Assembly (NCBI GenBank): GCA_025356245.1
Contig: JANXUO010000112.1
Location: 1 to 38,560, forward strand
Origin: Hymenobacter sp.
GTDB taxonomy: Bacteria; Bacteroidota; Bacteroidia; Cytophagales; Hymenobacteraceae
DNA length: 38,560 bases
Direction: 5' to 3'
Position numbers and translations under genes: made by a program. Every line of letters begins with the position of its first letter. Position 1 is the stretch's first letter. This document shows, piece by piece, positions 20,672 to 33,295 of the stretch. Under the pieces are notes generated by a model. It was not told where the DNA came from, searched no databases, and worked only from the letters and a program-made list of their open reading frames with translations.

Positions 20672-20756
20672 AAATGTTGAGTGTTGAATGTTGAATGTTG
20701 AATGGTTCAGGATAAACAATCAGCATTCAACACTCAGCATTCAACACTCAACACTT
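20672..20756. terminator. 32-bp hairpin of GTTGAAT-type words between convergent genes
   Basis: The arms at 20672-20703 and 20725-20756 are reverse complements at 29 of 32 positions. The left arm is built from TGTTGAAT/TGTTGAGT words and contains no C. It starts 3 bases after the barrel gene stop, and its right arm covers the last codons and the stop (20734-20736) of the convergent FAD enzyme gene. Confidence 0.75.
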
Positions 20757-22020
20757 CAATAATCTGCTCTGCTACTTCGCGACCGGTGGCCAGGGCGGCG
20801 TTTAGCGACGGGTAGGCGCTCCAGTCGCCGCAGCGGTAGAGGGTATCGGTCAGGCGCAGTGGGAGTTGGGTGGGTTGGCCGGCGGCGTACTCGGGCAGGG
20901 CGTTGGCTATTTCGTAGGTTTTGAGGTGCTCCCAGCCCGCCACCTGGGGGCCAAACCACGCCAGCAGCTCCTCGCGCAGCTGCCGGGTAAGGTCGGCGGC
21001 AGTCAGGCCGTGCGCGCCGTGGGTGCTGACGGATACCAGGTGGCGGCCCACCGGAGCGCAGGCCGGGGCCGTTTCGGAGGCAAACACTACGTTGTGGGCC
21101 AGCTGGTTGGGCATGGCGTTGAGGCGCAGCAGGCCATTGCGGTGGCCGGGGGCGGCGGCCCCGGCGGGGGTGGCAAAGTAGGTGCAGGTGGTGCGGCGGG
21201 CGGCGGCAATGCGGCCGTTTTCGGGCAGCACCTGGCCGGGCAGCAAGTGGGCCGGGGCCGAACCGTCAACGGCCAGCACCACGGCGGCGGCGGTCAGCAC
21301 CTCGCCGTTTTCGAGGTGGACGCGGCGGCCCTCTACACGGGCCACGCGGGTGCTGAGGCGCACCGTGCCCGTGGGCAGGCGGGCGGCCAGCTGCTCGGGC
21401 AACTGTTGCATACCGAGGGCCGGCACGGCCGCCGCGCCGCGCACAAACTGCTGAAACACAAACTCGAAAAAGTTGCTGGCCGTGCCCAGGTCGCGGTCGA
21501 GAAACACGCCCCCAAAAAATGGCCGGAAGAAGTTGTCAATCATGCCCTCGCTCCAGCCGTAGCGCCGCAGGAAGCTGAGCGTGTCGGTGGCTGGGCGGGC
21601 CAGCAGCTCGGCGGGCGTGTGCTTGGCCACGTGGCGCACCAGGCTCAAAATCCGCAGCTTGTCGGTGAGCGTACCAATGGGCGAGGCCAGGGCCGAAAAC
21701 GCCGCCAGCGGCCGCTGCAAGGGGTTTTGCAGGGTCGTTTCGCGCCCGTCGGCCAGCCGGATGACGGCCCCCGACTGGTAGGCTTTCAAGTTCAACGCCC
21801 CGTAGTCGAAGATGCGCCGGGCCTCGGGATACTCCGTCAGCAGCACCTGAAACCCCCGGTCGAGCCGGAAGCCCTCGGGCGTGACGTCGGTGCGCACGCG
21901 CCCGCCCACGGCATCAGCAGCTTCGAGCAGCAGCACGGAGCGGCCGGCGCGGTGCAGCCAAGTGGCGCAGGCCAAGCCCGCCATGCCCGCGCCAACGATG
22001 ATGGTTGGAGATTTTGTCAT
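20734..22020 (-). CDS. FAD-dependent amine-oxidase-type oxidoreductase
   Basis: A 428-residue flavoenzyme of the amine oxidase/protoporphyrinogen oxidase/phytoene desaturase superfamily. The N-terminal dinucleotide fold has VGAGMAGLACATWLHRAG (GxGxxG) and LLEAADAVGGRVRTD, the second FAD motif. Then come GFRLDRGFQVLL and a substrate domain (FFRPFFGGVFLDRDLGTASNFFEF). The C-terminal FAD contact region is LYRCGDWSAYPSLNAALATGR. The substrate is not evident; carotenoid- or porphyrin-like compounds are typical for the group. The last seven codons (EVLSVEC) fall inside the hairpin arm shared with the convergent gene end. Confidence 0.87.
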   Translation of the reverse strand: MTKSPTIIVGAGMAGLACATWLHRAGRSVLLLEAADAVGGRVRTDVTPEGFRLDRGFQVLLTEYPEARRIFDYGALNLKAYQSGAVIRLADGRETTLQNPLQRPLAAFSALASPIGTLTDKLRILSLVRHVAKHTPAELLARPATDTLSFLRRYGWSEGMIDNFFRPFFGGVFLDRDLGTASNFFEFVFQQFVRGAAAVPALGMQQLPEQLAARLPTGTVRLSTRVARVEGRRVHLENGEVLTAAAVVLAVDGSAPAHLLPGQVLPENGRIAAARRTTCTYFATPAGAAAPGHRNGLLRLNAMPNQLAHNVVFASETAPACAPVGRHLVSVSTHGAHGLTAADLTRQLREELLAWFGPQVAGWEHLKTYEIANALPEYAAGQPTQLPLRLTDTLYRCGDWSAYPSLNAALATGREVAEQIIEVLSVEC

Positions 22021-23716: not shown

Positions 23717-25269
23717 CTAGGGCTGCAGCACCTCGGCGGCGTTGGCCACGGGGCCAAAGCGCTTAAAAATCAGCAGCTGCTCGTCTTCGTAGGCCACCCG
23801 GAAATCGGCCCGTGCCCGCAACTGCTCGATGGCCCGGGCGCTGGCGGCCAGGCTCAAGGGCCAGGCGCTGCCCTCGTCGGGGTAGCGCAGGATGGCCACG
23901 TAACGGGCATCGCGCACCACCGGAAACAAATACAGCTGCGGCCGCTCGGGCACCTGCGGCACTAGGCACGACTGCGCACTGAGTGCCACCGTGGCCGGCA
24001 GCCGGGCCAGGGCGGCGTGCAGGGCCGCCCGCTGGTAGTGGCAGCGGTAGTGCCGCCCGAGCAGGAAATTGGTGGTTGTGCGGTCGTACCAGGTGCTTTG
24101 CCGGGTGTAAAGCGTGACGATGGTAAACAGGGCCGTGACAGCTACTGCCACCGGCCCCGCCAGCGCCCGGCGCCCGGCGGGCAGGGGCGGGCGGGCAGCC
24201 AGCCAATCGGTCACGGCCAGCGCCAGCACCGGCGCAAACTCGATGGAATACTGGCCGTTGATGCCCCATATTCCAGGGTCGTTGGCCAGCAGCTTCTGGC
24301 CGACAATGGGCAGCAGCATCAGGGCGTACCAGGGCCGCCGCAGCAGCGCCCAGCCGCCCGAGAGCAGCAGCGCCGCCCACAGCTCCAGCTTGATGTAATT
24401 GTGCGCCGGGTCGCCGGTGGTGTTCTCCAACAACGCCGCCCACAGCGCCGCCGGGTGCGCCAGCACGTAGGCCACGGCGGCGGGCAACGACGGCCCCAAA
24501 TGACGGTAGCGCACCAGCTGGGCAAAGGCCCGGTGGGCGTGGTCGAGGCCCGGCATCACGTAGCTGGTTATCAACCAAAAGTAAGCTAGGGCGCCCCCGG
24601 CGGCCAGGCCCAGCCCGGCGGCCACCGCTCGCTGCCGCCGGTGCTGCCAGGCCAAGCCCAGCAGCACGAAAGCCAGCCACAGGGCCATGTTTTCTTTGCT
24701 GAGCAGCAGCAGCAGGGCGGCCGCGGCGGCGGGCAGCCAGCGGCGCTGCCCCACCCACAAGGCCAGCCAGGGCAGGGCCATGGCCCCCACCACGTTGTCG
24801 TGATAATCAAACCCCAGCGCCGAAAAAACGCCCCACTGGCTACCAAACAATGCCAGTGCCCAACTGGCCTGCCCCGGCGTAGCACCCCGCGCCAAGGCGT
24901 AGCACCCCGCGCCAAGGCGTAGCGCCACACGCCCAGCGCCCCCAGCAGCACCGCCCCCAGCTGCACCAGCAGCAGCGCCCACGCCCCGCCCGTTAGCCAG
25001 TAGAGCGGCACGGCCAGCACCGGCGTCAGGCTGAAATGCACGGCTAGAAACGGCATGGGCGGCGCGTCGTGCAGCAGCGTGGCCCAAGGCGCCCGCCCGT
25101 GGGCAAACGCCGCCACGGCCTGCGCCGTAATACCCAAATCAAGGGCGGCGGTGCGGAAGTTGAGCTGATTGACGAGTGAAATCAGCGCGTATGTCAGGCC
25201 GAAGCCCAGCAGCAGCAGGGCTGGTAGCAGATGCCGAAAGCGGGCAGCAAGAGTCGAGGATTCAGCCAT
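23717..25269 (-). pseudogene. DUF2079 membrane protein, frame broken by a 20-bp tandem duplication
   Basis: The start at 25269 (MAESSTLAARFRHLLPALLL) reads through several membrane helices and the DUF2079 hallmark ALDLGITAQAVAAFAHGRAPW...LAVHFSLTP. At 24879-24918 a 20-bp sequence is repeated in tandem, which shifts the frame; translation then runs on to a stop at 24586 after 227 codons. The rest of the protein continues in another frame to 23717 (GFDYHDNVVGAMALPWLALW, LLSKENMALWL and so on). Deleting one copy gives one frame of 510 residues reading RYALARGATPGQASWA across the join, the usual size for DUF2079. The family is GT-C-like and probably transfers sugars from polyprenyl phosphates. 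Real mutation, phase variation or assembly error are all possible. Confidence 0.85.
24879..24918. repeat. 20-bp tandem duplication inside the DUF2079 gene
   Basis: Two identical adjacent copies of GTAGCACCCCGCGCCAAGGC lie at 24879-24898 and 24899-24918. The identity extends to a GGC before the first copy and GTAGC after the second. The extra 20 bases shift the reading frame; loss of one copy restores it. Confidence 0.95.
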
Positions 25270-25540
25270 GGAAAGCGCCAACGCGGCTGCAATACTACAA
25301 CCGGGGGCGGGGCAACTCTTAAGTTACGATGCTGGCAACTGGCGGGCCGTGGCCGCACGGCTTACTACCAGATGCCACTGTAGCACCAGGCAACGAATGT
25401 GTTTTTAGCAAGCGCTCCGCAGTGCCGCCTCCTGTGCCGGGGCCAATTATCACAGCCCGCAGTTAGGGTGGCCAAGCGAGCGGTGTTGTGGCCCAGCTAA
25501 CAGCCGGCTGTACCTTTGCTTTGACACGGCAGGAAGTATT
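25270..25540. promoter_or_regulatory. Divergent intergenic region between DUF2079 gene and IS-interrupted GT39 gene
   Basis: No gene is supported here. It holds the upstream regions of both divergent glycosyltransferase-type genes. A consensus-like promoter lies near its right end: TTG at 25486-25488, 22 bases, then TACCTTTG at 25511-25518, pointing toward the IS element and the GT39 gene. Confidence 0.5.
25511..25518 (+). promoter_or_regulatory. Bacteroidota -7 box TACCTTTG, probably native GT39 promoter
   Basis: This is an exact TAnnTTTG match with a TTG 22 bases upstream. If the IS is removed, the box would lie about 50 bases before the GT39 ATG, a normal distance, so it probably belonged to that gene before the insertion (inference). 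Confidence 0.5.
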
Positions 25541-26364
25541 GAAGCTGTTTAGAAAGTCAAAGGACTCCCAAAAAAGCGCGAAATTTGAGGTGCAACACTC
25601 ATCTTTTTCGCATTTTGATGGAAGTCCTGTCCAAAGATATGATTCGCCAATGGATTCTGCCCGTGCTCACCTTCTCCGCCCACGGCCGCCCCTCGGTCGT
25701 GGAGCCGGTCGAGTTAGTGGAAGTCATCCTCTACAAGCTCAAAAGCAGCTGCCAGTGGCGCTTGTTGCCTGTCAATCAGTTTTTTACGGGTGCAACGCTG
25801 ACCTGGCAGAGCGTGTACGCCCGCTTTAATGCCTGGCGCAAGAACGGGTCGTGGCAAGGGGTCTGGCTCCGTTTGTTGCGCGAAAACGGGGCCCACCTGG
25901 ACTGTTCCAGCGTCCAACTGGACGGCAGCCACACACCCGCCAAGAACGGCGGGGAGGCCGTCGGCTATCAGGGCCGCAAAAAAGCCCGCACCACCACGGC
26001 CCTGTTCCCGGCCTACAACCGGGGCCAGCCTTTGGCCTGCGCCCGCCCGCAGGCGGGCAACCACCACGACACGCACCGGCTCAACGCCTTGTTCGGGGAA
26101 ATCTGCGCCGCGCTCGAAGCGGCCAACATCCCCCGCAACCGCCGCGCCGCCGACTGGCAGACCGACGACGACACCCCCTTCGACCCCGAACTTTACGCCC
26201 GCCGCGTCGTGGTCGAACACGCCAACGCCTGGCTCGGCGGTTTTAAAACCTTGCTCGTCCGCTACGAAACCAGCGTCGGCAATTGGCTGGCCTGGCACTG
26301 GCTCGCCTTCGTCGTCATCCTTTTTGCAAAAAATCAACCAAAAGCCGACTTTCTAAACAGCTTC
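25541..26364 (+). mobile_element. Degenerate IS5-family insertion sequence
   Basis: Perfect 18-bp terminal inverted repeats GAAGCTGTTTAGAAAGTC lie at 25541-25558 and, inverted, at 26347-26364. They flank a single transposase frame. The element is about 824 bp. TATT occurs directly before the left repeat and 2 bases after the right one, and TA occurs at matching positions if each end is extended by two bases, so the target duplication is uncertain. The transposase is damaged, so the copy is probably immobile unless helped in trans. Confidence 0.88.
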
Positions 26365-26397
26365 GTTATTTGCAAATCTATTGTATTAGCCTCATGA
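25618..26397 (+). pseudogene. IS5-family transposase with internal deletion and 3' frameshift
   Basis: A 259-residue frame starting MEVLSKDMIRQW. The IS5-group domains are clear: a helical N-terminal part with CQWRLLPVNQFF and WQSVYARFNAWRKNGSWQ, the first catalytic Asp at residue 102 in LDGSHTPAKNGG, the QAGNHHD motif, and the catalytic Glu at 200 in VVVEHANAWL. Between ALEAAN (170) and IPRNRR the segment that normally carries the second Asp (FLNAD-x-x-FD) is absent, an apparent in-frame loss of about 30 codons. Near 26319 the frame also departs from the family C-terminus: the +1 frame reads FLQKINQKPTF and stops at TAA 26354-26356 inside the right repeat. The present frame instead runs past the IS end and overlaps the next start as ATGA. 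Confidence 0.85.
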
Positions 26398-27966
26398 GTG
26401 ACGTTTGGTTGATGTGCCTGCTTATTGGCAGCTTGTTTTTTTTGGTGGGTAGTTACGTAGGTTGGCGGCAGCAGCGCCCAGCTCAAGCCTTGCTACTGTT
26501 GATGGGAGCCGCCTTCTTGCTGCGCTTGACAATGATTGGCCTAGACCCCTTTCTGCACGATTGGGACGAACGGTATCATGCCTTAGTAGCTCGCAACCTC
26601 ATGGATGCCCCCTTGCGTCCAATGTTGCGGGCTATTCCCGCGTTGCCCTACAATTACAAAGCGTGGTGCTGCAACCACGTTTGGCTGCACAAACAGCCGT
26701 TGTTCCTGTGGCAAATGGCCCTTGCCATGAAAGTTTTCGGCACCAATGTAGTCGCGCTCCGGTTGCCCAGCGCCTTGCTCGCTCGGCAGTCTCTTGCTTT
26801 ATCCGATTTATCGCATTGCCCTACTGATTTACCACGACTTTAGCACCAGCTACCTGGCGGCCGTGCTGGCTGCTTTTGCCTTTTATGCGCTGGAGCAAAC
26901 CAGTGGCCTCATTGGTATGGACCACGACGATGTTGCCTTTACGGCCTACGTAGGTGCCAGCGTATGGGCCTACTACGAGTACCGGGTCAGTGCCCGGCCC
27001 GGCCGCTGGCTGGTGGCGGTGGGCGCATTTGCTGGCGCAGCGGTGCTGTGTAAGTGGCTTACCGGCTTGGTGGTATATGCTGCTTGGGGTTTGGATATTT
27101 TGAGCGACCCCGCCCGTCGTCGGGTGGTCATGCAGTACGTTCATGCCGGGTTATCTGTGGTGGCAGCCACCGTCGTCTGGCTGCCCTGGCAACTGTTCAC
27201 CGCCTACCACTACCCCCTCGAAAGCGCCTACGAGCGCAGTTACAATGCCCGCCATTTCACTGAGGCACTGGAAGGCCACGCCCACGACTGGTACTACCAT
27301 TTCGCGCTGCTTCCCATTCACTACGGGGCCATTTGTGGGCTGCTGGTCCTGGGGGTGGGTTGGGCGCTGTTTTCTGCCGACCGGCACCGCCCAGTGGGGC
27401 TGCTTTTGGCTATTGCGGGGTTGATTTACGCCTTTTTTACGCTGGCAGCAACCAAAATGTACTCATATACCTACGTTGTCAGCCCTTTGCTGTTTGTGAT
27501 AGCGGCTCGCCCGCTCGCATTGTTTATAGCATGGCTGCCGGGCCGATTTGCGGGCCGGCCCTGGGGGGTGGGTTTGGCAACTGCGGGGTTGCTGCTAGCG
27601 GTTGTGTTGCTTGATGCTCGTCCCTGGGGAGTGTACACGGTGCATTTTCAAGAAGGAAGCTACGGCCTTTACCAAGAAATGCTACAACGCCCAGCTCGTA
27701 CGGCCAACGCTAGGCTTTATGCGCAACTGGGCGAAGACCTACCCGCTGAATACCTGATAATCAACGTCCCCGGCAGCGAGGAAGTGCAGGCCATGTTCCA
27801 TTCTGGGCGCACCGTATACAGTTGGCCACCCAGTGAAGCACAAGTGCGCTCGCTAATACAGCAAGGCTGGCGCATTACGGCCTTCGACAGCCACCACAAC
27901 CAGCAGCTACCAACTTACGTTCGGGCCACACCGGGCTTTCGTCTCATTTGGGGCGCTCCAGAGTAG
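26394..27966 (+). pseudogene. GT39/ArnT-like glycosyltransferase, frame broken by a 4-bp tandem duplication
   Basis: A multi-pass GT-C enzyme that would transfer a sugar from a polyprenyl-phosphate donor on the periplasmic side. The start at 26394 reads through two helices and LHDWDERYHALVARNLM (acidic catalytic loop, Asp56/Asp58/Glu59). At codon 129 a CTCG repeat (26778-26785) shifts the frame; the first frame stops at 26843 after 149 residues. The +1 frame carries on with LLLYPIYRIALLIY, GMDHDDVAFTAYVGASVWAYYEY, further helices and the C-terminal soluble part to 27966. Removing one CTCG gives RLPSALLGSLLLYPIYR and a single frame of 522 residues, the family's usual size. A TTG at 26794 could restart translation of the second part, but that would lack the catalytic loop. 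Confidence 0.87.
26778..26785. repeat. CTCG-CTCG tandem duplication in the GT39 gene
   Basis: Two adjacent CTCG units (26778-26781 and 26782-26785) sit where the reading frame breaks. Removing one unit joins the two halves exactly in frame and gives the conserved RLPSALLGxLL sequence. Confidence 0.85.
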
Positions 27967-32507: not shown

Positions 32508-33233
32508 TTACCCGCCCAGCAGCCCGTACTTCATGATGCAGTAGATGGCCCGGAAGCCGTCGCGCCAGCCAATTTTTTTGCCCTCGGCGTAGGTGCGGCC
32601 GTAGTAGCTGATGCCTACTTCGTAGATGCGAACGTCGGGCACCCGCGCTATTTTGGCGGTTACTTCGGGCTCGAAGCCGAAGCGCTTCTCTTGCAGCGTC
32701 AGGCCCTGGATGAGGTCGCGGCGGAAGAGTTTGTAGCACGTTTCCATGTCGGTCAGGTTCAGGTCGGTGCACATGTTCGAAAAGAACGTGAGGACAGCGT
32801 TGCCGATGCTGTGCCAGAAAAACAGGATGCGGTGCGGATTGCCACCCAAAAAGCGCGAGCCAAACACCACGTCGGCAAAACCCTTGAGGATGGGCTTGAA
32901 CAGCACGTTGTATTCCTCGGGGTCGTACTCCAGGTCGGCGTCCTGGATGATGACGTAGTCGCCGGTGGCCTCGCGGATGCCGGTGTGCAGGGCCGCGCCC
33001 TTGCCTTGGTTCACAGCGTGTTCGAGCAGACGCAGGCCCAGCTCGGGGTAGCGGGCGGCGTAGGCCCGGATGGTGTCGGCCGAGGCGTCGGTCGAGCAGT
33101 CGTTGACCAGGATGATTTCCTTCCGGATGTCGTTTACCAGCTTCAGCTCGCGCAGCAAATCCAGAATCTGGTGAATGGTGCGGGCCTCGTTGTAAACCGG
33201 AATGACGATGGAGAGCGTGTCAAATTTGACCAT
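32508..33233 (-). CDS. GT2 polyprenyl-phosphate glycosyltransferase (DPM1/GtrB-like)
   Basis: A 241-residue family 2 glycosyltransferase. [13 protein letters not shown] begins the GT-A fold; VNDCSTDAS and the DxD region [12 protein letters not shown] bind the nucleotide sugar and metal. GSRFLGG, the acceptor segment [26 protein letters not shown] and [19 protein letters not shown] are typical of dolichyl-phosphate-mannose synthase-like enzymes. The length equals the soluble DPM1 type without C-terminal membrane helices. It would load a sugar onto a polyprenyl phosphate at the inner membrane, giving the donor used by GT-C enzymes such as those next to it. I chose the ATG at 33233; the gene is convergent with the intact GT-C gene. 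Confidence 0.9.
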
Positions 33234-33261
33234 GAAGCGAAAAAACAATTGGCAAATTACC

Positions 33262-33295
33262 AAAAAAAGCCACCCAGCGTCGCGGCTAAGTGGCT
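33262..33295 (-). terminator. Rho-independent terminator of the tRNA-Gly gene
   Basis: On the minus strand an 11-bp stem (AGCCACTTAGC with GCTGGGTGGCT, two G-U pairs) and a CGCGAC loop are followed by TTTTTTT. It begins 11 bases after the tRNA end. It separates the tRNA from the GT2 gene, whose start is 29 bases further on. Confidence 0.88.

Follow-up and report, generated by a model that had tools for sequence, protein, structure and literature searches.

Glycosyltransferase genes of Haemophilus and Neisseria contain tetranucleotide repeats that change the reading frame, and these phase-variable systems have five or more units. The published cut-off for phase variation by tetranucleotides is at least five units (PMC5953494), the rate of variation is set by the number of repeats (PMC11868660), and the tetranucleotide tracts of Haemophilus influenzae lie, with two exceptions, at the start of the gene or just past it (PMC2651432). 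A literature search found no paper on phase variation in Hymenobacter. Glycosyltransferase genes may also be lost in a more ordinary way: the lesions of spontaneous capsule-negative mutants of E. coli include IS insertions as well as the deletion of four nucleotides from a glycosyltransferase gene (PMC13410964), and these mutants illustrate the ordinary spectrum of such losses. Multi-component transmembrane glycosylation depends on GT-C partners such as the PMT_2-type GtlB of Listeria, and the lipid-linked sugar for enzymes of this type comes from an activating glycosyltransferase that is linked to the membrane (PMC8035078).

The window analysed here (the whole stretch of 38,560 nucleotides) corresponds to contig C455 in the genome of an uncultured Hymenobacter, an assembly of metagenome type that totals 4.38 Mb over 678 contigs and whose named relatives are Hymenobacter species. 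On its forward strand, a transferase gene is divided between two frames: an upstream part of 149 aa (26394..26843, with an ATG at 26394) and a downstream part of 390 aa in a shifted frame (26794..27966, from a TTG at 26794 to the stop at 27966), which, according to the matches to relatives, are consecutive portions of one protein. The reading frame moves by one at the 4-nt tandem repeat CTCGCTCG (two copies, 26778-26785, forward strand), and the full extent of the period-4 run is slightly wider, at 9 nt (GCTCGCTCG, 26777-26785). The matches to relatives switch between the two frames at residue ~131, a few bases from the repeat; in Hymenobacter daecheongensis, the end of the match to the upstream part and the start of the match to the downstream part are 3 bases apart and in a single frame. 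Since the family alignment is gapless across this site, through the motif RLPSALLxxLLLYPxYR at which the window gene breaks, the window has four bases more than its relatives at that point.

The first transmembrane helices and the invariant WDE..HALVA motif are preserved in the upstream part, the final ~19 residues of which are out of frame, while the downstream frame is open from 5' of the repeat up to 27966 without a further stop. The break falls about one quarter of the way into the gene and inside a transmembrane helix (residues 124-137 of the predicted structure of the H. daecheongensis relative), so that only a 149-aa fragment can be made, which retains the WDE/HALVA loop and is missing most of the enzyme. 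A preliminary description of this DNA had proposed that a duplicated CTCG shifts the frame by one and stops the protein after 149 residues, and the repeat, at 26778-26785, and the two frames are indeed there; the 522 residues that it predicted for a gene with one CTCG agree with the lengths of the intact relatives (472-566 aa). The repeat by itself is not significant: the window has two occurrences of the 8-mer CTCGCTCG where 0.9 would be expected, and perfect 4-nt tandem pairs are found everywhere at ~345-350 per 100 kb (353 in the window, 341 across the remaining contigs, and 346 in the control Hymenobacter). The informative point is that the repeat coincides with the frame break.

In the relatives, the gene is whole. 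It is present in 6 of the 119 other genomes of the genus, each time as a single frame 514-566 aa long, and a scan of named genomes of Hymenobacter and other Bacteroidota found it unsplit at 11 of 11 loci (472-566 aa), so the split is confined to the window genome in comparison with the 11 named relatives and the 6 genus matches. The homologues of the downstream part, which are 50-52% identical, are likewise in a single frame, and no tandem repeat was found at the frame-break site in those genus relatives whose DNA was read.

The order ProRS, ALDH, DUF2079, transferase and following gene is shared with H. daecheongensis, and the transferase of Hymenobacter properus lies in the same neighbourhood as that of the window; this synteny indicates that the transferase is a resident gene and not a chance open frame. 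A recently acquired foreign gene was considered on the basis of its lower GC content (0.54-0.58 vs 0.63) and is not favoured, given that H. daecheongensis and H. properus share the neighbourhood; that the GC3 of the transferase equals that of the H. daecheongensis gene also counts against a foreign origin. Where the window has an insertion sequence, between DUF2079 and the transferase, H. daecheongensis has a family 2 glycosyltransferase and a methyltransferase (L115:1627-3429), a pair that recurs in other Hymenobacter near a different large membrane protein (L144:4112-7579). No close copy of the H. daecheongensis pair was found in the searched sequence of the window genome; its loss in this lineage is nevertheless unproven, because the H. 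properus transferase is also without the pair alongside. More generally, the genes adjoining the transferase vary among relatives, and DUF2079 and the transferase occur together in only one genus match besides the window, so the two need not cooperate.

As to what the enzyme was, the downstream part alone matches positions 38-160 of the Pfam family PMT_2 at 26.5 bits, just above the curated cut-off of 26.1, and the upstream part matches positions 3-32 weakly, at an E value of 0.017 only. An intact relative scores 68.4 bits with PMT_2 and 53 bits with Pfam PMT. The predicted structure of the H. daecheongensis relative (pLDDT 86, pTM 0.89) finds its best fold match in ArnT, the lipid A 4-amino-4-deoxy-L-arabinose transferase (5F15; E 6e-9, TM about 0.6 over the whole length), followed by oligosaccharyltransferases, ALG9 and other GT-C enzymes, which places the model in the GT-C fold; a PMT structure was a weak match. 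A sequence search of the PDB returned no match, and the NCBIfam ArnT model matched the intact relative weakly, in its middle part, at 39.3 bits vs a curated cut-off of 567. The likeness to ArnT (PDB 5F15/5EZM) is one of fold, at 16% identity, and gives no indication that the substrate is aminoarabinose. The WDE and HALVA motif in the upstream part, nearly or fully invariant in relatives, is the acidic motif of the first periplasmic loop, to which we ascribe, presumably, a catalytic role.

Together, these results support the prediction that the product before the break was an ArnT/PMT_2-like GT-C transferase of lipid-linked sugars. The view that the enzyme would add a sugar from a lipid carrier is therefore backed by PMT_2 and by the model's best fold match; of the earlier label "GT39/ArnT-like", the ArnT/PMT-like half holds, whereas GT39 is not established, the closest solved fold being ArnT (CAZy GT83) and not a GT39 protein mannosyltransferase. 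With the GtlB type of system, the window shares both PMT_2 and a nearby family 2 glycosyltransferase (32511..33263, reverse strand). The latter is 89% identical to one that adjoins the intact transferase of H. properus, and it is a possible candidate for the maker of the lipid-linked sugar donor.

The absence of other damage to the gene, which the preliminary description had also claimed, is borne out by the lack of stops and of any measurable excess of changes at conserved sites. At the columns identical in the other five sequences, the C part of the window gene keeps 85 of 98, and each intact relative, tested in the same way as a control, keeps 85 of 88-95. Private changes in the window, H. 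daecheongensis and H. properus number 10, 12 and 7 in the N part and 64, 51 and 44 in the C part (Fisher P 0.68). Trees in which the C-part branch of the window is longer (0.68 vs 0.47 and 0.40) had suggested that the second half is decaying; the counts of private changes disagree (P 0.68), and the idea was rejected. Some 2.2 stops would be expected in the downstream part had it accumulated 0.05 neutral substitutions per site, and 4.4 with 0.1; as it has none, neutral drift after the break can have reached very roughly 0.1 substitutions per site at most. By these sequence comparisons, the lesion is recent relative to the divergence of these species; its age is poorly bounded, and "young" is a loose term, because even the nearest intact protein shares only about 50% identity. 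The lesion had been called young or reversible: the first stands, in that no further decay was detected, and the second is not supported, in that there are only two 4-nt units and no repeat in relatives.

A second gene of the locus is broken too. The DUF2079 gene, for a predicted membrane protein (23717..25281, reverse strand), lies in two frames, which match PF09852 at positions 5-91 (N part) and 82-403 (C part), and the break is at a perfect 20-nt tandem duplication of 2.4 copies that forms a 48-nt array (24876..24923, reverse strand). An 8-nt direct repeat, GGCGTAGC, is found at the ends of this duplication and bounds the 20-nt unit as slippage would predict. The relatives of the gene have one copy of the unit and are unsplit: among 28 other Hymenobacter genomes with a match to DUF2079, 27 have open frames of at least 509 aa, and the 28th (G071) matches over 42 residues only.

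The two broken genes are separated by an IS5-like element (25541..26364, forward strand) with terminal repeats GAAGCTGTTTAGAAAGTC and a transposase that has DUF4096 and a partial DDE domain and is internally shortened relative to the copy on C355. No clear target duplication was found at this element. Other copies and fragments of the IS elsewhere in the genome are 85-95% identical where longer than 80 bases, and several contigs end within IS copies. The element ends 29 bp before the start of the transferase gene, upstream of which no Bacteroidota-type promoter was found near that start; it probably cuts the transferase off from its native promoter, an effect that is guessed from its position.

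Repeats of other kinds were seen in this genome. Two arrays of 7- and 14-nt units (AATGTTG and AACACTCAGCATTC), partly complementary to each other, lie at the 3' end of an amine oxidase gene (20673-20759); a unit related to the 14-nt one is also present at L091:4156-4186, and the repeat may be one of a family dispersed through this genome. At L077:7137-7210, an 11-nt unit, AGCCCGCGTCG, the length of which is not a multiple of three, is repeated exactly almost seven times.

The explanation that we consider probable is a recent, ordinary loss of function by a slippage-type 4-nt duplication in a surface-glycosylation locus that is being lost. Directly observed are the split over two frames, the relatives with a single frame, the breakage of the neighbour and the IS; with single-frame orthologues and a frame-breaking indel, the gene is, as far as sequence can tell, a frameshift pseudogene. 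The starting point would be a vertically inherited Hymenobacter gene for an ArnT/PMT_2-like GT-C enzyme, in which replication slippage would have produced the tandem duplication of four nucleotides and knocked out the transferase. The small locus would be under loss in this lineage, with the transferase and DUF2079 genes each frame-broken by a tandem duplication and the former cut off from its native promoter by the IS5-like element. Under relaxed or negative selection, the duplication would have been tolerated or favoured as the locus was no longer needed, and such a locus would agree with the breakage of a second gene and with an IS on the promoter side. Ordinary frameshift pseudogenes that arise from small tandem duplications present the same picture (an exact duplication, a single genome, intact relatives and neighbouring lesions), and the transferase of the window does not differ notably from them. 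A mild oddity is that two neighbours are each broken by exact tandem duplications.

It is unlikely, in our estimation, that the duplication is an assembly or consensus error in a metagenome-assembled bin, be it a plain artefact or the allele of a minority strain. The genome is in 678 contigs, 82% complete and 3.4% contaminated, and two frame breaks within 2 kb are suspicious. Against this, contigs that end in IS copies would be the mark of a short-read assembly, in which short exact duplications would need spanning reads. Moreover, in 413 kb of this genome, neither long tandem duplications nor run-on frame switches are much more frequent than in the control: there are 22 frame switches in the 413 kb vs 12 in 340 kb of control, and 5 vs 2 when a run-on of at least 40 nt is required, in a scan that is insensitive and a weak control, as it missed the transferase break itself.

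Phase variation, in which tandem copies would be gained and lost frequently, the enzyme would be made in part of the population and a surface glycan would be turned on and off, is rather less probable still. Surface glycosylation enzymes are often phase variable, the transferase shows no decay after the break, and the duplications in the two neighbouring genes could in principle be lost again. The frame-changing 4-nt unit inside a glycosylation gene is likewise reminiscent of the Haemophilus and Neisseria systems, but the window has only two units instead of the five required (PMC5953494), pairs of this kind occur everywhere at ~345 per 100 kb, the duplication is in the middle of the gene, unlike the 5' tracts of H. 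influenzae, and the repeat is present at this site in no genus relative whose DNA was read, so that there is no conserved or variable tract among them. The "switch" of the preliminary description is therefore not upheld. The reversal of a single duplication is possible and expected to be rare, and we give very little credence to the more specific proposal that both surface-glycosylation genes are switched by 4-nt and 20-nt duplications formed, and lost again, at short direct repeats. That both frames are used, either joined by ribosomal frameshifting or with the second half translated independently, is hardly credible and was rejected: the downstream frame does offer a TTG at 26794 and 390 codons uninterrupted by a stop, but the second half is without the invariant WDE/HALVA motif, and no relative is split, which leaves nothing conserved to act as a recoding signal and also disposes of a second half translated separately across the family, the outcome that would have told against a broken gene.

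The transferase is, as it stands, a routine inactivated gene, and it is mainly a caution for annotation: the two halves belong in a single entry, marked as a broken gene. If the switching of both genes were true, it would be a case of low-copy phase variation, which repeat-number cut-offs pass over; if both alleles occurred, the two adjacent duplications would indicate switching with far fewer units than phase-variation searches require.
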